Source: Oscillospiraceae bacterium (GTDB lineage: Bacteria; Bacillota; Clostridia; Oscillospirales; Ruminococcaceae). From it: a stretch of 64,000 nucleotides of DNA. A model generated the notes under the pieces. The model saw nothing but the letters and a program-made list of their open reading frames with translations, did not search any database and was not told where the DNA came from. Below, piece after piece: positions 40,601-47,406 of the stretch (within the stretch, counting starts at the first letter, position 1; each line of letters opens with the position of its first letter). The stretch lies in NCBI GenBank assembly GCA_021199855.1, contig JAJQHD010000036.1, positions 1 through 64,000 on the forward strand. Reading direction: 5' to 3'. A program made the translations under genes and the position numbers.

Positions 40601-41106
40601 CTATTCTTCGCAGTCATACATATGCTTATCAACATAGCCCATCATCCGATTATTGAGAACTATGTACTCAATCAGCACCACAACCGGCGTGAAGGCGGAC
40701 ATTATCGGCTCTTCGAATATTATCGGTGCCGCAATCAGGAAGACGAGAGCAATCACTGCCGATATAACGAATTCCACAACATGCTCTTTTCTCCACTTTT
40801 TCTTCCAGTAATCGCTTTTCTCTTTGTTTGAGAACATTTCCGAGCGTGCAATTTTCATGACGTTCTCGTCTGCCTTTTGGCGGAAGCTTCTATCGTCAAG
40901 AACCTCGCCTGCAAGAAGCTCGTTTATGCTGACGTTAAAGGTTTCTGCCAACACCTCAAGCATATCAATGCTCGGCATATAGCTTCCGGTCTCCCAACGG
41001 GAGATTGTTTTATTGGTAATGCCAATCCGCCGCCAAGTTGTTCCTGAGTGAGGCCGTTCTGTTTGCGAAGCTCTGCAATAAATTTGCCGGTTTTGACCTG
41101 ATCCAT
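40601..41106 (-). pseudogene. XRE-family HTH membrane regulator, frameshifted
   Basis: Read from 41106 downward: MDQVKTGKFIAELRKQNGLT, then QEQLGG, the first half of a Cro/C1 helix-turn-helix. The frame then shifts; the rest (RIGITNKTISRWETGSYMPS, then IDMLEVLAETFNVSINELLAGE) is in another frame to 40601. The sequence CTTGGCGGCGGATT around 41028-41034 needs one extra base (for example GGCGGGCGG or GGCAGGCGG) to restore the ORF, giving about 168 residues. The C-terminal part has two hydrophobic segments (VVEFVISAVIALVFLIAAPI and a second one) and an acidic end, as in common clostridial HTH membrane proteins. No partner gene is evident. Confidence 0.85.
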
Positions 41107-41211
41107 ATTATCACCTCAAACTAATCATATCCGATTTCCCGTGAGAATTCAACCCCACAAACGGCGAATCGATTTTTTTCGTGAGATTTTCGCGTTTTTT
41201 CGCTTCCCAGA

Positions 41212-41249
41212 TTGTAACTCTTGCACTTACACCCAACTTGTGTTATAAT
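41212..41249 (+). promoter_or_regulatory. Rrf2 gene promoter with overlapping operator
   Basis: -35 TTGCAC (41221-41226), a 17-base spacer, extended -10 TGTTATAAT (TATAAT 41244-41249). An inverted repeat TTGTAA-n9-TTACA (41212-41231) surrounds the -35. The identical layout occurs before the ACGX peptide gene (42462-42482), implying autoregulation. Confidence 0.7.
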
Positions 41250-41280
41250 ATTCTCATCAAACTTAGGGAGCACCCATAAA

Positions 41281-41727
41281 ATGCAGATTTCAAGCAGATT
41301 CACAATTGCGATTCACATACTCACGTGCATCGAGACATTTAAAGACCAATACAAAACCACGAGCGAATTTCTGGCGGGGAGCATCAATGTCAACCCGGTC
41401 ATAATTCGCCGTATCTTGCAACAGCTCAAAGCCGCAGGGCTCATCACCGTGGCTCGGGGGAGCGGGGGAGCGTCGATTGCGAAACCACTTGACGAAATTA
41501 CTTTTTTAGATGTATATAACGCCGTTGAGTGCGTCGAGAGCGGCGAGCTCTTCCATTTCCACGAAAACCCGAGTCAGGCTTGCCCTGTCGGCAGGAATAT
41601 CCACGCTGCCCTTGACGATAAGCTCATGACGATTCAGCAGGCGATGGAGAACAAAATGCGGGAGATTACCGTCGCGGATGTTGTAAATGACACCAAAATT
41701 TGCATAGAAAAAGAGTCCGAAAGGTGA
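41281..41727 (+). CDS. Rrf2-family transcriptional regulator
   Basis: A 148-residue DNA-binding protein: MQISSRFTIAIHILTCIET, then the winged helix (~22-75, TTSEFLAGSINVNPVIIRRI, LQQLKAAGLITVARGSGGAS) and a dimerisation helix. The Rrf2 family includes Fe-S, cysteine and nitric-oxide sensors; this member has few cysteines (one near residue 13 and ACPVG near 100) and lacks the three-Cys cluster of IscR/NsrR, so it resembles the YwnA-type subgroup. The ATG at 41281 is preferred over the upstream frame, which would overlap the promoter. It heads the RiPP-like cluster and shares its operator with the peptide gene, so it is the probable regulator of that cluster. Confidence 0.9.
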   Translation: MQISSRFTIAIHILTCIETFKDQYKTTSEFLAGSINVNPVIIRRILQQLKAAGLITVARGSGGASIAKPLDEITFLDVYNAVECVESGELFHFHENPSQACPVGRNIHAALDDKLMTIQQAMENKMREITVADVVNDTKICIEKESER

Positions 41728-41731
41728 TTTT

Positions 41732-42364
41732 ATGACAGACAAGTATATAGAAGATATTTATAAAGTCAGGAAGACGTATCAACCAATCTACAGAGATAGC
41801 TATTTCGCAAAAAATGAGCCTGTGTTCAAGTTTTCGTATGCACCGCTTTACAAGTCATTGGATAGCCAATTTCCTTGGAGAAATGATTCTGAACAGACTG
41901 AACTGATTACGAAAATATGTTCCAATTTTAAATTTTCGGAGGATTATTTTGAATTAGAGAAGAGTGCTGAAGCGATGGCGACAGCTGCAAAAGAATGGGC
42001 TTCCAGCGAATATAATCTGATGATGCAACAAAAGCATAATAGTCTAACTGACTCATATATCGATGTGGCATTTAGTCAAATAAAGAGTTATTTGGAAATA
42101 GCCGTGAAGCTCGGGAATATAGATGCTCTTTGTGCTATGGGGTGGTACTATAAAGAACGAAGTTCTTACGGTTCGAGCTCTTGTGACATATACAAAAGTC
42201 AGGAGCACAAAAATTATAGATGCTTAAGCATTGCGTATTACAAAGTGGCGGCAGAGTATGGGCATTTGTACGCAATAGAAGAAGCAACGGCGGATTACAT
42301 TTTGAAAAACCAATCATTGGCGGATTATTTAAGATACTCGAAAACAATCCACCGTAGCTATTGA
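41732..42364 (+). CDS. Hypothetical protein with Sel1/TPR-like C-terminus
   Basis: A 210-residue protein of unknown function. No signal peptide. The second half holds helical repeat-like pieces (SYLEIAVKLGNIDALCAMGWYY, SIAYYKVAAEYGHLYAIEEA) that resemble Sel1-type repeats, which usually mediate protein contacts. AAAGGTG precedes the ATG, four bases after the Rrf2 stop, so the two are coupled. The coding sequence is more AT-rich than the surrounding genes, hinting at recent acquisition. I cannot tie it to a family. Confidence 0.7.
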   Translation: MTDKYIEDIYKVRKTYQPIYRDSYFAKNEPVFKFSYAPLYKSLDSQFPWRNDSEQTELITKICSNFKFSEDYFELEKSAEAMATAAKEWASSEYNLMMQQKHNSLTDSYIDVAFSQIKSYLEIAVKLGNIDALCAMGWYYKERSSYGSSSCDIYKSQEHKNYRCLSIAYYKVAAEYGHLYAIEEATADYILKNQSLADYLRYSKTIHRSY

Positions 42365-42461
42365 AATAACACTATTTGTTCTCAAAAAGAGTCCGAAAGC
42401 TAAGTTTCCGGACTTTTCTTTTACTGGTATAGACGGATTTATACTTCTTGAAAAATTTTAG

Positions 42462-42499
42462 TTGTAACTATTGACATTACAACTGTCATGTGCTATACT
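42462..42499 (+). promoter_or_regulatory. Promoter and operator of the ACGX peptide operon
   Basis: TTGACA (42471-42476), a 17-base spacer and TATACT (42494-42499). The inverted repeat TTGTAA-n9-TTACAA (42462-42482) straddles the -35 exactly as at the Rrf2 promoter. Region 42365-42461 shows no other feature. Confidence 0.85.
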
Positions 42500-42502
42500 C
42501 AT

Positions 42503-42525
42503 GTTGTAATCAAAAAGATTACAAC
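42503..42525 (+). promoter_or_regulatory. Second operator / hairpin downstream of the ACGX promoter
   Basis: GTTGTAATC-AAAAA-GATTACAAC: perfect 9-bp arms with a 5-base centre, at the transcription start, carrying the same TTGTAA half-site. It could be a second Rrf2 operator or a leader stem-loop. Confidence 0.65.
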
Positions 42526-42550
42526 AATATTTTTCGGAGGTAATTTAGCT

Positions 42551-42790
42551 ATGGCACTTTCTAATCTGGTTGGATGGACTGACGAGACCTCTACCGCATC
42601 TGCTTGCGGTACAGCTTGCGGAGCAGCTGATAAGGCGGAGGAAAAGCCGGCAGCATGTGGCTCTGCATGTGGTGCGGCTGATAAGCCTGCTGAGGCACCT
42701 GCAGCTTGCGGTTCTGCTTGTGGTGCAGCTGACAAGCCGGAAGAGAAGCCTGCCGCCTGTGGTTCTGCTTGCGGAGCTGGCGACAAGTAA
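42551..42790 (+). CDS. ACGX-repeat peptide (RiPP precursor candidate)
   Basis: A 79-residue peptide. A short leader (MALSNLVGWTDETSTAS) is followed by four units of 17 residues, ACGxACGAADKxxxxPA, the last one truncated to 11. The eight cysteines (19, 23, 36, 40, 53, 57, 70, 74) all lie in ACG triplets, arranged as pairs four residues apart. The repeats are also clear in the DNA (51-base period). It is followed by a radical SAM/SPASM protein of the type paired with such ACGX peptides, so thioether or other Cys/Ala crosslinking is plausible but inferred. GGAGG lies 10 bases before the ATG. Confidence 0.9.
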   Translation: MALSNLVGWTDETSTASACGTACGAADKAEEKPAACGSACGAADKPAEAPAACGSACGAADKPEEKPAACGSACGAGDK

Positions 42791-42808
42791 TTCTGTCCGC
42801 AACTTTTT

Positions 42809-42838
42809 GCCTGATGAGCCGATATCGGTTCATCGGGC
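42809..42838 (+). other. Perfect stem-loop between precursor and radical SAM gene
   Basis: GCCTGATGAGCCG, loop ATAT, CGGTTCATCGGGC: a 13-bp stem with two G-T pairs and no U tract. It could stabilise or process the precursor mRNA, giving more peptide than enzyme. Confidence 0.6.
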
Positions 42839-42898
42839 ATCTGCGAAACATTGTCCGTTTATCGGCTTTATACATAACTTCAGAGGAGACCGTGCAAT

Positions 42899-43954
42899 AT
42901 GAAACAATACTTTTCTTTTCAATGGCACATCACAGACGAGTGCGACCAGCGGTGCAAGCACTGCTACATCTTTTCCGAAAACGTCTGCAAAGAGCTGGAT
43001 TCAATGAACTGGTCGGAGATGTTAAAGACGTTCAAGAACTGCCTTGACTTCTGCGAAACATATAACCGTCTGCCGTATTTCTATGTCACCGGCGGCGACC
43101 CCATTCTTCACCCGGACTTCTGGAAACTACTTGGATTTATGAGAGAGTACGACATTCCCTTCACAATTTTAGGCAATCCGTTTCATCTTAATGATGAAGT
43201 GTGCCGCCGTCTGAAAGAGTACGGTTGCAGAAAGTATCAGCTCTCCATTGATGGAATGAGGAAAACGCATGACTGGTTCCGCAAGCCCGGTTCATTTGAT
43301 ATTACGCTCAAAAAGATAGGTTGCATCAACCGTGCGGGCATCCGAAGCGTTATCATGACCACCGTTTCAGGCACGAATATTGATGAAGTCCCCGACATTA
43401 TTGACGCTGTGGTTGCGGCAGGGGCAAACGTGTTCGCCTTTGCCCGTTACTGCCCGACTTCCGAGGAAAAGGATACCGGCATCGAACCGCTCCGCTATCG
43501 TAAACTATTAGCAGATTGCGATAAAAAATTCAAAGAATATGAAGCCGCAGGGTGCCAGACTTATTTCAACAAAAAAGACCATCTCTGGACTCTATACGAG
43601 TACGAAACCGGCGAATTCAAAATCCCCGAGAATGCTAAGAACGGGATGATTTACGGCGGCTGTAACTGTGGCAACTGCCATCTTACCATTCTGCCGACAG
43701 GCGATGTCTATGCCTGCCGTCGGGTGCAGAACAGCAAGGTCGGCAACGTCTTTGAAAGTCGCCTTGCCGATTTGTGGGTCACGAAGATGGAGGACTACCG
43801 GGATTATACGAAGTTTGAAAAGTGCTCAAAGTGCGAGCTTCTGGCATACTGCCGCGGCTGTCCCGCTGTGGCAAGTGGAAAGGATGGAAACTTCTATGCC
43901 GTTGACCCGCAGTGCTGGCATGAAATCCCGGAAAAGGAGGCTACAGAACAATGA
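42899..43954 (+). CDS. Radical SAM/SPASM enzyme, ACGX system
   Basis: A 351-residue enzyme. The N-terminal radical SAM cluster motif CX3CX2C is at Cys15, Cys19 and Cys22 (ECDQRCKHCY). A TIM-barrel core follows with TGGDPILHPDFW. The C-terminal SPASM region (~253-340) has Cys255, 257, 260, 273, 309, 312, 318, 321 and 339, enough for two auxiliary [4Fe-4S] clusters. This is the enzyme type that crosslinks or epimerises ribosomal peptides; the adjacent ACGX peptide is the obvious substrate. The stop overlaps the nitroreductase start by four bases. AGAGGAG precedes the ATG. Confidence 0.93.
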   Translation: MKQYFSFQWHITDECDQRCKHCYIFSENVCKELDSMNWSEMLKTFKNCLDFCETYNRLPYFYVTGGDPILHPDFWKLLGFMREYDIPFTILGNPFHLNDEVCRRLKEYGCRKYQLSIDGMRKTHDWFRKPGSFDITLKKIGCINRAGIRSVIMTTVSGTNIDEVPDIIDAVVAAGANVFAFARYCPTSEEKDTGIEPLRYRKLLADCDKKFKEYEAAGCQTYFNKKDHLWTLYEYETGEFKIPENAKNGMIYGGCNCGNCHLTILPTGDVYACRRVQNSKVGNVFESRLADLWVTKMEDYRDYTKFEKCSKCELLAYCRGCPAVASGKDGNFYAVDPQCWHEIPEKEATEQ

Positions 43955-44538
43955 GTAAACTGATGGAAACAATCCTGCACCGCCGTTCAATCCGCCGCTT
44001 CGACACAAGGCAGATTAGTGAGCAGGCATTGCAGGAAATTCTGCAAGCCGGTCTGTACGCTCCGAGTGCCGGAGGAGGACAGCGTGTGATTCTTGTCGTC
44101 TGTCAGGATAAAGAGGTCAACGAACGTCTTGGCAAGATCAAGCGTGCAAACTCAAATCCCCGTATGGCTACGGCTACAAATTATGTATCAAAAGAACAGC
44201 CCAGTATTGCAGACGACCCGAATATAAAAAACGCCTTTTATGATGCCCCGACGGTTATCACCATGTTTGCGCCGAAGAATTTTCTCTTTTCGGCGGAGGA
44301 TTGTGCGTGTGCCGCAGAAAACATGATGCTCGTGGCAGATTCACTGGGCATCGGCTCTTGCTATCTCGGGCAAGGTTGGGTGGCGTTCGCAGACCCTTAC
44401 GGTCAGGAAATTCTGAAAAAATGGAATATCCGCACCGATTACTATGCTGTCATGCAGCTTCTTCTCGGCTATCCCCGTGAGGGAGACCCTCATCCTACGG
44501 CTAAACCAAGAAAAGCCGACCGTATACTGAGATTTTAG
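43951..44538 (+). CDS. Nitroreductase-family flavoprotein
   Basis: A 195-residue FMN-dependent oxidoreductase of the nitroreductase superfamily. The start METILHRRSIRRFDTRQIS, APSAGGGQ (~38-45) and the C-terminal GYPREGDPHP are typical FMN-binding elements. DCACAAENMMLVADSLGIGSC supports the assignment. It overlaps the radical SAM gene by four bases, suggesting coupled expression; it could supply electrons or oxidise the modified peptide. Substrate unknown. Confidence 0.9.
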   Translation: MSKLMETILHRRSIRRFDTRQISEQALQEILQAGLYAPSAGGGQRVILVVCQDKEVNERLGKIKRANSNPRMATATNYVSKEQPSIADDPNIKNAFYDAPTVITMFAPKNFLFSAEDCACAAENMMLVADSLGIGSCYLGQGWVAFADPYGQEILKKWNIRTDYYAVMQLLLGYPREGDPHPTAKPRKADRILRF

Positions 44539-44553
44539 TTGGGAGGATTTATT

Positions 44554-45168
44554 ATGGACGCACAGACCTGTCTTAAGAAATTGCAATATGTCGGCGTGCT
44601 CGAATTTGCAACTGTGGATTCCGGCGGGAACCCGCAAATCAGAAATATCAGCGCCATTCACTATGAGCTCGACAGGATGTACTTTTTCACTGCAAGAGGA
44701 AAAAACTTCTGTCGTGAACTGTTGTCCGACGGAAGAGTGCAGATTCTCGGCTACACCCGCTATAAGGAAATGATTCGCCTCTCAGCAAAGGCGGTTCCAG
44801 TCTCCGAGGAAGACCAGCAGAAATGGACAGACGTTATTTTCAAAGAACAGCCCTATCTCAGCAATGTCTATCCCGGTGATACAAGAAAAATCGGAATTGT
44901 TTTTGAAATACATGATGCCGAAATCGAATATTTCAATCTCGGCGTAAACCCGATTTTCAGGGAGAGCTATACGATTGGAGAGGGAAAGGTTAAGCCGAAA
45001 GGCTATTACATCACTGATGCCTGCATCGGTTGCGGAAAATGCGTTAAGATATGCCCGCAAAAGGCAATCGAATCTGGCAAGCCGAGCATGATTCATCAGG
45101 AACACTGCCTGCACTGTGGCAACTGCTTTGAAAACTGCCCGGTAAAAGCTATCGAGAGAAGAGGATAA
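44554..45168 (+). CDS. Pyridoxamine 5'-phosphate oxidase-like protein with ferredoxin domain
   Basis: A 204-residue protein with two parts. The N-terminal split-barrel flavin-binding domain (~1-140, GVLEFATVDSGGNPQIRNIS, YFFTARGKNFCREL) is of the pyridoxamine-phosphate-oxidase-like class. The C-terminal 2x[4Fe-4S] ferredoxin domain has CIGCGKCVKICP (157-168) and CLHCGNCFENCP (185-196). It is a flavin/iron-sulphur electron carrier or reductase. The ATG at 44554 follows GGGAGGA. It lies 15 bases after the nitroreductase and two before the macrodomain gene. Confidence 0.88.
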   Translation: MDAQTCLKKLQYVGVLEFATVDSGGNPQIRNISAIHYELDRMYFFTARGKNFCRELLSDGRVQILGYTRYKEMIRLSAKAVPVSEEDQQKWTDVIFKEQPYLSNVYPGDTRKIGIVFEIHDAEIEYFNLGVNPIFRESYTIGEGKVKPKGYYITDACIGCGKCVKICPQKAIESGKPSMIHQEHCLHCGNCFENCPVKAIERRG

Positions 45169-45170
45169 GA

Positions 45171-45950
45171 ATGACCCAATCCGACCGCAGAATCTGGCTT
45201 ATAAAAGAGCTTCTTTCGGAGAACCCGCAGTATAGGGATTATGAAATCCCTGCTGACGAATACTCCCAGAAACGGCTTCTCAGGGCGCTTTTCAACGTCC
45301 GGCTTCCGAAGTCAATCAGCGATGAATTTTTGAAGATTCAGGACGAATATTTGCAGGAAGAGACCCGCCTGAAGGGAATTACAGATATAGACGATTTGGC
45401 ACCCGTTCGGGACGGCATTTATCTCTGGCAGGGCGACATAACGACGCTCCGGTGCGGAGCTATTGTCAATGCGGCGAATTCGGCACTTCTTGGGTGCTTC
45501 GCGCCAAACCACGGGTGCATCGACAACGCAATCCACACCTATTCGGGAATTCAGCTCCGCCTCGCCTGTAATGAGATTATGCAGAAGCAGGGTCACGAGG
45601 AGAAGACCGGCACAGCCAAGATAACTCCGGCGTTCAACCTCCCCTGCAAATATGTCATCCACACGGTAGGACCGATTGTTGGCTGGCATCTTACAGAGAA
45701 GGACAAGAAGCTTCTTGCTTCCTGCTATCGTTCATGTTTGGAAATTGCGGACGAAAACAATGTCCAGAGCATCGCTTTCTGCAGTATCTCCACCGGAGAA
45801 TTTCATTTCCCGAACGACAAGGCGGTCGAAATTGCTCTGAAAACAGTCACAGATTATAAGAAAGAAACCCACAGCGAAATAAAGGTGATATTCAATGTAT
45901 TTAAAGATGCCGACCTCGAAATCTATGAGAAGCTCCTCGGAACAGATTGA
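45171..45950 (+). CDS. Zinc-type macrodomain protein (ADP-ribosyl hydrolase)
   Basis: A 259-residue protein. An N-terminal helical region (~1-75) precedes a macrodomain (~80-255) with QGDITTLRCGAIVNAANSAL and the motif GCFAPNHGCIDNAIH. Cys109, His114 and Cys116 fit the zinc site of Zn-Macro proteins found beside SirTM sirtuins. Such enzymes remove ADP-ribose from proteins. The next gene, overlapping by 56 bases, is a SirTM-like sirtuin, so the two form a write/erase pair. There are two bases between it and the ferredoxin protein. Confidence 0.92.
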   Translation: MTQSDRRIWLIKELLSENPQYRDYEIPADEYSQKRLLRALFNVRLPKSISDEFLKIQDEYLQEETRLKGITDIDDLAPVRDGIYLWQGDITTLRCGAIVNAANSALLGCFAPNHGCIDNAIHTYSGIQLRLACNEIMQKQGHEEKTGTAKITPAFNLPCKYVIHTVGPIVGWHLTEKDKKLLASCYRSCLEIADENNVQSIAFCSISTGEFHFPNDKAVEIALKTVTDYKKETHSEIKVIFNVFKDADLEIYEKLLGTD

Positions 45951-46764
45951 GCGACTGAAGGAGGCTCTCGAAACAGCCGATGCAATTGTAATCGGTGCCG
46001 GAGCAGGGCTCTCAACCTCGGCAGGATTCAGCTATTCCGGCAAGAGATTTGAAGAGAATTTCTCCGACTTCGAGAAAAAGTACGGCTTCCACGACATGTA
46101 CTCGGGCGGCTTCTACCCTTACGAAACCCTCGAAGAATTCTGGGCGTTCTGGAGCAGGAATATCTGGCTGAACCGCTACACCGACGCCCTGAAGCCGGTC
46201 TATCAGGACCTTTTCGAGCTCGTCAAGGACAAGGACTACTTCGTCCTCACGACCAACGTCGACCACTGTTTCCAGAAGGCTGGCTTCGACAAGAAGCGCC
46301 TCTTCTACACCCAGGGTGACTACGGACTCTTCCAGTGCTCCGAGCCCTGCCATCAGAAGACCTACGATAACGAGGAAGTTATCAAAAAGATGATGGAAAC
46401 GCAGGAGAACATGCAGATTCCGTCCGACCTCGTCCCGAAATGCCCCGTTTGCGGCAAGCCAATGTCGATGAACCTTCGTTGCGACGACACCTTCGTAGAA
46501 GATGATGGCTGGCATCAGGCGGCAGAGAGATATTCAGAATTTCTTCGCCGCCACGATGGCTTGGCAACGCTGTATTTAGAACTCAGTGTCGGATTCAACA
46601 CCCCCGCCATCATCAAATACCCATTCTGGCAGATGACCCTAAAGAACCCGAAAGCGACCTACGCCTGCATAAACTACGGCGACGCCGCCTCACCATCGCA
46701 GATTGAAAGGCAGTCGATTTGCATTGATGATGACATCGGGAGGGTGCTGAAAAAGCTCGCGTAA
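45895..46764 (+). CDS. Class M (SirTM-like) sirtuin, predicted ADP-ribosyltransferase
   Basis: A 289-residue Sir2-superfamily protein. The NAD-binding loop GAGAGLSTSAG (34-44), TTNVDHCFQKAG (119-130) and four zinc cysteines (148, 152, 183, 186) are present. Where deacetylase sirtuins have the catalytic His (ELHG), this one reads LFYTQGDYGLF (~137-146), as in SirTM proteins, which transfer ADP-ribose to protein instead of deacetylating. The ATG at 45895 has AAAGGTG 7 bases upstream and overlaps the macrodomain gene; Met11 is an alternative start. In known SirTM operons the target is a GcvH-like protein; none is here, so the acceptor is unknown. Confidence 0.92.
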   Translation: MYLKMPTSKSMRSSSEQIERLKEALETADAIVIGAGAGLSTSAGFSYSGKRFEENFSDFEKKYGFHDMYSGGFYPYETLEEFWAFWSRNIWLNRYTDALKPVYQDLFELVKDKDYFVLTTNVDHCFQKAGFDKKRLFYTQGDYGLFQCSEPCHQKTYDNEEVIKKMMETQENMQIPSDLVPKCPVCGKPMSMNLRCDDTFVEDDGWHQAAERYSEFLRRHDGLATLYLELSVGFNTPAIIKYPFWQMTLKNPKATYACINYGDAASPSQIERQSICIDDDIGRVLKKLA

Positions 46765-46804
46765 AAGATTTTCCGCTTCCACGCAAATTTCTCGTGAAAA
46801 AGAC

Positions 46805-46833
46805 TTGATTTTTTCTCCGGGATGTGCTATTAT
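46805..46833 (+). promoter_or_regulatory. tRNA-Ala promoter
   Basis: TTGATT (46805-46810), a 17-base spacer and TATTAT (46828-46833). Confidence 0.7.
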
Positions 46834-46845
46834 ATTCGAAGTATT

Positions 46846-46921
46846 GGGGTATTAGCGCAGTTGGGAGCGCGCCACACTGGCAGTGTGGAGGTCACGGGTT
46901 CGAATCCCGTATGCTCCACCA
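46846..46921 (+). tRNA. tRNA-Ala (anticodon GGC)
   Basis: A 76-base cloverleaf with encoded CCA. Acceptor GGGGTAT / ATGCTCC, anticodon stem CCACA / TGTGG with loop CTGGCAG (anticodon GGC), T-arm GGGTTCGAATCCC. Confidence 0.95.
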
Positions 46922-46925
46922 AAGA

Positions 46926-46951
46926 AGCATCCGAACCCGGGTGCTTTTTTT
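46926..46951 (+). terminator. tRNA-Ala terminator
   Basis: AGCATCCG, loop AACC, CGGGTGCT and a run of seven T. Confidence 0.85.
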
Positions 46952-47012
46952 ATGAATCCTGAGTTTCGGCTCGGGATTCTTTATTTTTTCTTAAAATTTT
47001 TTATTTTCCCTC

Positions 47013-47041
47013 TTGACAAGCGCAATACTTCGTGATATGAT
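47013..47041 (+). promoter_or_regulatory. PadR operon promoter
   Basis: TTGACA (47013-47018), a 17-base spacer and TATGAT (47036-47041). Confidence 0.85.
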
Positions 47042-47079
47042 GTATAGCATAACGGGAGGTATTCAAAAGGAGGACTTCT

Positions 47080-47406
47080 ATGGATACACAATTAAAACGA
47101 GGGCTTCTGGATGTCTGCGTGTTGGCGGCAATCAAGGGTGAAGATTCCTATGGTTATAAAATTATCAAGGATCTCTCGCCGTACATCAGGCTGTCCGAGT
47201 CCACTCTCTACACCATTCTCAAACGCCTTGAATCGGCAGGAATGTTGACGGTCAGGAACGTCGAGCACGACGGCAGGCTCCGCAAGTACTACCACATCAC
47301 CGAAGCGGGGCTCAGGCGCATCGACGAGTTCAAGGTCGAGTGGAAAGAGATTTTCGCAATCTATCAATTTATAACCAAGGAGGATAATGAAAATGGGGAA
47401 AAATGA
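47080..47406 (+). CDS. PadR-family transcriptional regulator
   Basis: A 108-residue winged-helix repressor: LKRGLLDVCVLAAIKGEDSYGYKI is the family start, STLYTILKRLESAGML the recognition helix, and the C-terminal helix dimerises. PadR proteins beside DUF1700/DUF4097 genes usually control their own operon in response to envelope stress or drugs; here that is inferred from context. AAAAGGAGG lies before the ATG. It overlaps the next gene by 14 bases. Confidence 0.93.
   Translation: MDTQLKRGLLDVCVLAAIKGEDSYGYKIIKDLSPYIRLSESTLYTILKRLESAGMLTVRNVEHDGRLRKYYHITEAGLRRIDEFKVEWKEIFAIYQFITKEDNENGEK

Follow-up and report, generated by a model that had tools for sequence, protein, structure and literature searches.

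In the main texts of the two studies that describe the closest known systems, SirTM sirtuins add ADP-ribose and zinc macrodomains (Zn-Macro) remove it, and the one known SirTM target is lipoyl-GcvH-L, which is encoded in the same operon, itself induced by oxidative stress; the Zn-Macros of lone pairs are inactive on GcvH-L (PMC4518038; PMC11490716). What SirTM/Zn-Macro pairs modify when they stand outside the GcvH-L operon is described as unknown (PMC11490716), and the wording 'one type of extended operon' leaves room for other types (PMC4518038). The window analysed here, a stretch of 64,000 nucleotides from an Oscillospiraceae bacterium (positions 1 to 64,000 of contig JAJQHD010000036.1), holds a gene for an ACGX-repeat peptide followed by genes for a radical SAM/SPASM enzyme, a nitroreductase-family flavoprotein, a PNPOx-like domain fused to ferredoxin motifs (PNPOx-ferredoxin), a Zn-Macro and a SirTM (42551-46764, all on the + strand; all coordinates are positions in the 64-kb window; Table 1). 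This linkage of ACGX and SirTM is real and recurrent, and it gives a form of the SirTM/Zn-Macro operon that we did not find in the open literature searched. The terms 'radical SAM' and 'nitroreductase' are absent from the main text of both studies, and no description of the linkage appeared among the titles and abstract openings of open papers; since supplements and most subscription papers lay outside this search, the absence is not proof.

Like the extended operon of Staphylococcaceae and Lactobacillales (GcvH-L, LplA2, Zn-Macro, SirTM, OYE and LLM), the window locus combines adjacent Zn-Macro and class M sirtuin genes with a sulfur-bearing candidate carrier, two flavin-type oxidoreductases and signs of a redox-stress link. 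Unlike that operon, its eight genes include no GcvH-L, LplA/LplA2 (LplA was sought within the operon only), OYE or LLM, and a cysteine peptide with its radical SAM enzyme stands in the carrier's place. An earlier account of this DNA made from its letters alone (the sequence-only reading) had remarked that no GcvH-like protein is present, which holds for these eight genes; GcvH was also rejected as a hidden target, the genome's only match to the GcvH family being a protein that we take, from a biotin motif, to be biotin-carrier-like. The same account gave the identities of the genes and their order on the + strand correctly, but they number eight, not seven. The SirTM/Zn-Macro pairs of Clostridia without ACGX share the pair and often the kind of regulator, but have no peptide cassette and carry other middle genes or none that are recognised. 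The window enzyme and peptide both pass the cut-offs of the NCBIfam ACGX models (TIGR04340 and TIGR04341) and so belong to that system, whose one-line descriptions cover the enzyme and the peptide, SirTM/Zn-Macro and the flavin partners being unnamed.

The window SirTM aligned with the Streptococcus pyogenes SirTM (5a3a) over 16-285 with the active-site N, Q and R in register, and it carries QG in place of HG, TTN and VGxNTP, in keeping with the published motif definitions (QG for HG, catalytic Asn/Arg, GVGx[NT]TP; PMC4518038). Its reading frame overlaps that of the Zn-Macro, the linkage to a macrodomain gene that is expected of class M, and by family it would be an ADP-ribosyltransferase rather than a deacylase; translation may start at the internal ATG at 45925. 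The Zn-Macro matched the solved structures PDB 8rsi (E 2.3e-78), 5kiv and 8rsl, and its eight-residue zinc loop CFAPNHGC aligned with CFIPMHNC of 8rsi (alignment over residues 6-256; for loop length see PMC11490716). From the enzyme through SirTM, adjacent genes overlap or lie no more than 15 bases apart. All 52 ACGX-linked SirTMs tested retain TTN, QG and VGx[NT]TP, the Arg having been seen in the window alignment only.

Relatives of the enzyme in a scan of named genomes numbered at least 549, of which the best 80 were kept; these, the window and four more gave 85 loci, after L035 and L036 (on the same contigs as L043 and L044), L041 (enzyme cut off by a contig edge) and L042 (truncated enzyme, though SirTM is linked there) had been left out. 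Counting as linked a gene on the same strand that starts no more than 6 kb downstream of the enzyme, SirTM was linked in 29 of the 53 loci with at least 6 kb of flank, Zn-Macro in 23 and both in 22, and SirTM was found in 43/85 when the flank condition was ignored. The PNPOx-ferredoxin gene was present in 33/53, nitroreductase in 38/53 and a quinone-oxidoreductase-like enzyme in 12/53, one or other of the last two occurring in 50/53. In the class sample of 391 genomes, the ACGX enzyme was present in 17 (16 over the cut-off) and SirTM in 66; SirTM occurred in 16 of the 17 ACGX genomes versus 50/374 of the others (Fisher p 1e-12), and in 13 of the 17 it lay within 5 kb of the enzyme on one strand. 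Among the remainder, SirTM was on another contig in three genomes (in G424, one of these, the enzyme is followed by 1.7 kb of contig) and absent in one, whose enzyme is below the cut-off. The sequence-only reading had allowed that the pairing might be confined to this genome; since the linkage was found in many genomes, this is not so, and an accident of one genome is ruled out by the recurrence across loci, in the class sample and in genus g86, where 9/12 genomes carry ACGX, all nine with SirTM linked, and two of the other three carry SirTM.

Shared ancestry was controlled by genus and order contrasts only. Within the window's genus SirTM was present in 5/5 ACGX genomes versus 11/26 others (one a fragment; p 0.043), and leaving out G009, whose enzyme is truncated, gives 4/4 versus 12/27 (p ~0.06 by our own arithmetic); in other genera of the order the values were 3/3 (one partial) versus 8/65 (p 0.003). 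These counts mean that ACGX mostly implies SirTM and that SirTM does not imply ACGX: co-occurrence exceeds linkage and the association is one-sided. Pure hitch-hiking, in which accessory genes of gut Clostridia have simply gathered in the same islands, would suit the patchy, accessory distribution of both ACGX and SirTM in samples that are taxonomically uneven and whose rows are not independent, but we regard it as very improbable given that the association holds within the window's genus and order and that strand and spacing are mostly conserved, with Zn-Macro usually ~0.7 kb before SirTM.

The linkage also appears to have been assembled repeatedly. On a tree of 103 SirTM sequences, 98 of them labelled, parsimony requires 16 changes of the linkage label, of which well-supported branches force at least 5, as compared with a mean of 32.5 changes for shuffled labels (0/500 as low as 16), although this was a quick tree with 46/100 inner branches open and with rows partly chosen for ACGX. 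Genome G521 carries the peptide, enzyme, nitroreductase and PNPOx-ferredoxin genes together with a SirTM that shares only 47% identity with that of the window and stands before the Zn-Macro, the reverse of the window order. Within the window's genus a frame running from Rrf2 to Zn-Macro-SirTM is kept, with the same flanking neighbours in several genomes, while the middle genes vary. Where the window, G001, G013 and G025 have the ACGX cassette, G027, G005 and G029 have an NAD(P)-binding protein (PF13460, tested on the copy in G025). In G024 this protein is accompanied by other genes and by what is left of the PNPOx-ferredoxin gene, and in G030 the middle is made up of a PNPOx, a component of an ECF transporter and a PNPOx-ferredoxin protein of 37% identity. 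Similar promoter and dyad sites precede each exchanged cassette in these relatives, and G025 combines the two, its ACGX cassette and NAD-binding gene standing next to each other, each preceded by dyads.

Judged from sequence, the reading that we prefer, at a probability of roughly 0.45, is that the locus is an operon for redox or electrophile stress, in which a module for reversible ADP-ribosylation acts on exchangeable partners. A redox regulator, which is Rrf2 in the window and HxlR in most relatives, would open the operon under stress, and the hairpin after the first gene would keep the peptide above the level of the enzymes. The radical SAM enzyme would make a reactive sulfur group from the Cys-Gly units, either an SbtM-like thiooxazole or a PapB-like CX3D thioether. 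The matured peptide could serve as an intracellular thiol, metal or electron carrier together with the nitroreductase and the PNPOx-ferredoxin protein, and SirTM would ADP-ribosylate the operon's carrier or redox partner, to be restored by Zn-Macro, as with lipoyl-GcvH-L in staphylococci and streptococci. We infer that the target here is a redox partner encoded in the operon, among which the modified peptide comes nearest to lipoyl-GcvH-L. The sequence-only reading had proposed the peptide or one of its oxidoreductases as a candidate for ADP-ribosylation; it is partly supported, through the recurrence of the linkage and the lack of a GcvH-like protein in the operon. That the matured peptide is itself the reversible substrate, with SirTM capping it on Asp/Glu of the repeat or on a Cys, Zn-Macro uncapping it, a ribosomal peptide taking the role of staphylococcal lipoyl-GcvH-L and the pair serving generally as a plug-in switch for which recombination exchanges the target cassette, is an attractive guess that seems rather unlikely; if it were so, we would know of no earlier radical-SAM-modified peptide that ADP-ribosylation switches. 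Because the pairing recurs in many species, it offers a concrete place to seek the targets of SirTM/Zn-Macro pairs: the locus supplies a small set of candidates, the natural cassette swaps in one genus can serve as controls, and a family of uncharacterised modified peptides is tied to reversible protein modification.

Several observations weigh against the preferred reading. SirTM identity to the window is 91-93% in the ACGX-bearing relatives G001, G013 and G025 and 83-93% in the ACGX-free G005, G024, G027, G029 and G030, and the corresponding Zn-Macro values are 84-88% and 85-88%; the pair, being similar with or without ACGX, is therefore not visibly fitted to the peptide, no clear specialisation of Zn-Macro or SirTM by cassette was seen within the genus, and similar pairs beside other cassettes argue against strict peptide specificity. 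SirTM is not within 6 kb in 24 of the 53 ACGX loci, twelve SirTM-linked loci lack Zn-Macro at its usual place, and 46 of the 58 SirTM loci with 4 kb of upstream flank have no ACGX enzyme (12/58 have it). The mirror-tree correlation between the enzyme and SirTM, at 0.41, is lower than that between Zn-Macro and SirTM. Some peptides, e.g., that of G521, have no Asp at +4, and the acidic content of the peptides is 0.121 where SirTM is linked (n=36) and 0.120 where it is not (n=18), equal values that rule it out as a feature tracking SirTM.

Part of this evidence would suit a target outside the operon, that is, one or more cell proteins modified by SirTM/Zn-Macro, the ACGX cassette and the pair having nothing in common but a stress regulator and a place convenient for insertion. 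The swapping of the middle cassette beside a similar pair and promoter fits such a target, as do the 30 of 58 SirTM loci that have none of the partners tested (ACGX enzyme, PNPOx-ferredoxin, NAD-binding protein, PNPOx), and the Rrf2 relatives with twin dyads before cupin-like genes, where SirTM is absent, fit the shared regulator. We hold this to be possible but doubtful, as it leaves unexplained the repeated re-assembly of the linkage and the presence of SirTM elsewhere in the genomes of 20 of the 24 unlinked ACGX loci, which with the 29 linked ones places 49/53 loci in SirTM-bearing genomes, a count that favours a functional tie. The same 30/58 led us to reject a single partner common to all SirTM loci; the genes adjoining partnerless SirTM loci are mixed, spurious frames included.

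The true partner might instead be the PNPOx-ferredoxin or another flavin protein, with the ACGX peptide a bystander of the same redox pathway. Mirror-tree correlations were 0.74 for Zn-Macro-SirTM, 0.71 for Zn-Macro-PNPOx-ferredoxin and 0.59 for enzyme-Zn-Macro, the second of which favours this partner, and a PNPOx-ferredoxin gene lies upstream in 19/58 SirTM loci, of which 10 lack the ACGX enzyme. However, at the thresholds used 39/58 SirTM loci have no such gene, and it is missing from 6/29 SirTM-linked ACGX loci with enough flank, so that we rate this alternative as improbable.

Some further observations concern the composition of these loci. The linked loci without a Zn-Macro within 6 kb downstream are L055, L057, L062, L073, L074, L077, L079, L085, L088, L092, L108 and L122; at L088 the Zn-Macro is located upstream, and the genomes of 11 of the 12 hold one. 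A full-length Zn-Macro was found in 12/13 genomes checked, 12 of the 13 having been picked for missing it at the linked locus. At L147, where no radical SAM enzyme was found, a remnant of the ACGX peptide is joined to the genes for the flavin/ferredoxin protein, Zn-Macro and SirTM, and in G019 the NAD-binding gene persists together with 46 residues of a decayed SirTM. The genome of L062 has, besides its ACGX-linked SirTM, three tandem SirTM-like genes (G508:C65:15286-17840) that are 36-38% identical to the window SirTM. Deacylase sirtuins carry HG at the place where two further SIR2 proteins in tandem at L002 (G000:C38, 1363-2845; PF02146 over cut-off), encoded after two nitroreductase-like genes, both read QG, and these could form a second ADP-ribosylating sirtuin set.

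The window peptide has the leader MALSNLVGW and four CX3C and four CX3D motifs. In 71 peptides with a recognisable leader, 46 of which have MALSNL-[F/S/A/V/T]-GW, Gly follows 470 of the 472 Cys residues, and position +4 is Asp in 238 and Cys in 207, as against ~6% Asp and ~9% Cys in shuffled peptides. CX3D is the motif crosslinked by PapB (PMC9413430), SbtM converts Cys to thiooxazole (PMC11002830), and a thiooxazole peptide having Cys-Gly units is reported to bind Cu(I) (PMC12538549). The thio(seleno)oxazole system of SbtM and the ranthipeptide system of PapB resemble the present one in having a SPASM enzyme that acts on a Cys peptide, and PapA shares CX3D with the ACGX peptide, but the window enzyme is below the cut-offs of both models, scoring 153.6 bits against the SbtM model TIGR04082 (350 required), the nearest other model by score, and 57.6 bits against that of PapB (340 required). 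Its predicted product is either a thiooxazole of the SbtM type or a CX3D thioether of the PapB type.

The promoter-like site directly 5' of the peptide gene has the best score before the operon, and its score is equalled at one other place in 41000-47100, at 47013, behind the operon. The two dyads that accompany it are exact over 23 bp, with no further match in the window, and are the sole two matches genome-wide when one mismatch is allowed. The pattern was defined from sites already seen, which makes its chance expectation of 0 a post hoc figure; another pattern, with a core spacer of 6 bases, missed the twin dyads and matched a single unrelated site, at the level of chance. Twin dyads 42 bp apart also occur before small cupin-like genes in L213, L214, L217, L219, L220 and L221 (one such gene was tested as a cupin); four of these six loci have an Rrf2 relative on the other side of the dyads, L221 has one at a distance of ~1.4 kb, and at L220 no such relative was found. 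Within the genus of the window, twin dyads with Rrf2 relatives appear to represent a broader type of regulon.

The stem-loop that the sequence-only reading placed between the peptide and enzyme genes is indeed present and recurs at related loci. In 63 peptide-enzyme gaps of 60-200 bases, each compared with 30 mononucleotide shuffles, the folding z was below -1 in 61 and below -2 in 54; a search of Rfam gave nothing for the hairpin at the gathering threshold, a tRNA being the only match. The hairpin would fit a device that yields peptide in excess of enzyme.

Table 1. Features of the operon region in the window (strand left empty where none was assigned).
Feature	Position	Strand	Evidence or remark
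Rrf2-family regulator	41281..41727	+	PF02082 113.7 bits
210-aa protein, no detected family	41732..42364	+	Profile searches
Stem-loop with T-rich tail, terminator-like	42390..42414		Separates upstream genes
Operator-like dyad 1, GTTGTAA-N9-TTACAAC	42461..42483		
Promoter-like TTGACA-17-TATACT, TG before -10	42471..42499	+	11/12 positions
Operator-like dyad 2	42503..42525		42 bp from dyad 1
ACGX-repeat peptide, 79 aa	42551..42790	+	TIGR04341 76.4 bits, cut-off 28
Hairpin between peptide and enzyme genes	42808..42839	+	Folding
Radical SAM/SPASM enzyme, ACGX system	42899..43954	+	TIGR04340 596.3 bits, cut-off 400
Nitroreductase-family flavoprotein	43951..44538	+	PF00881 90.1 bits
PNPOx-like flavin domain (PNPOx_N) fused to two 4Fe-4S (Fer4) motifs	44554..45168	+	PF01243 31.5 bits, PF00037 51.9 bits
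Zinc macrodomain (Zn-Macro), ADP-ribose hydrolase family	45171..45950	+	NF003163 367.9 bits, cut-off 272
SirTM class M sirtuin, ADP-ribosyltransferase family	45895..46764	+	PDB 5a3a E 2.8e-73

Upstream of the system, the Rrf2 protein is likely a regulator with its own transcription unit; its nearest NCBIfam model is the redox-sensitive HypR (NF041852, 58.1 bits, below the cut-off of 180), and its gene is held at the same place in relatives carrying other cassettes. A divergent HxlR regulator lies upstream in 55 of the 68 ACGX loci with enough left flank and an Rrf2 regulator in 5, and for one HxlR example the nearest model was the redox factor RrpB, below cut-off. The Rrf2 and 210-aa genes are probably transcribed apart from the operon, owing to the terminator-like stem-loop and the operon's own promoter-like site; this stem-loop was called on the - strand by the scan, and its + strand tail TTTTCTTTT was read in the sequence. 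The 210-aa gene probably lies outside the system: the label 'Sel1-like' given to its product earlier has no backing in Pfam or NCBIfam, where the only match was DUF3775 at E 0.48, and among the loci searched for relatives of the gene one was found in L037 only. A tRNA-Ala gene (anticodon ggc, 46846-46921) stands immediately 3' of the operon, and an apparent helix-turn-helix regulator gene, recognised by eye on the - strand at 40601-41106, is split across two frames (40924-41106 and 40601-40978).

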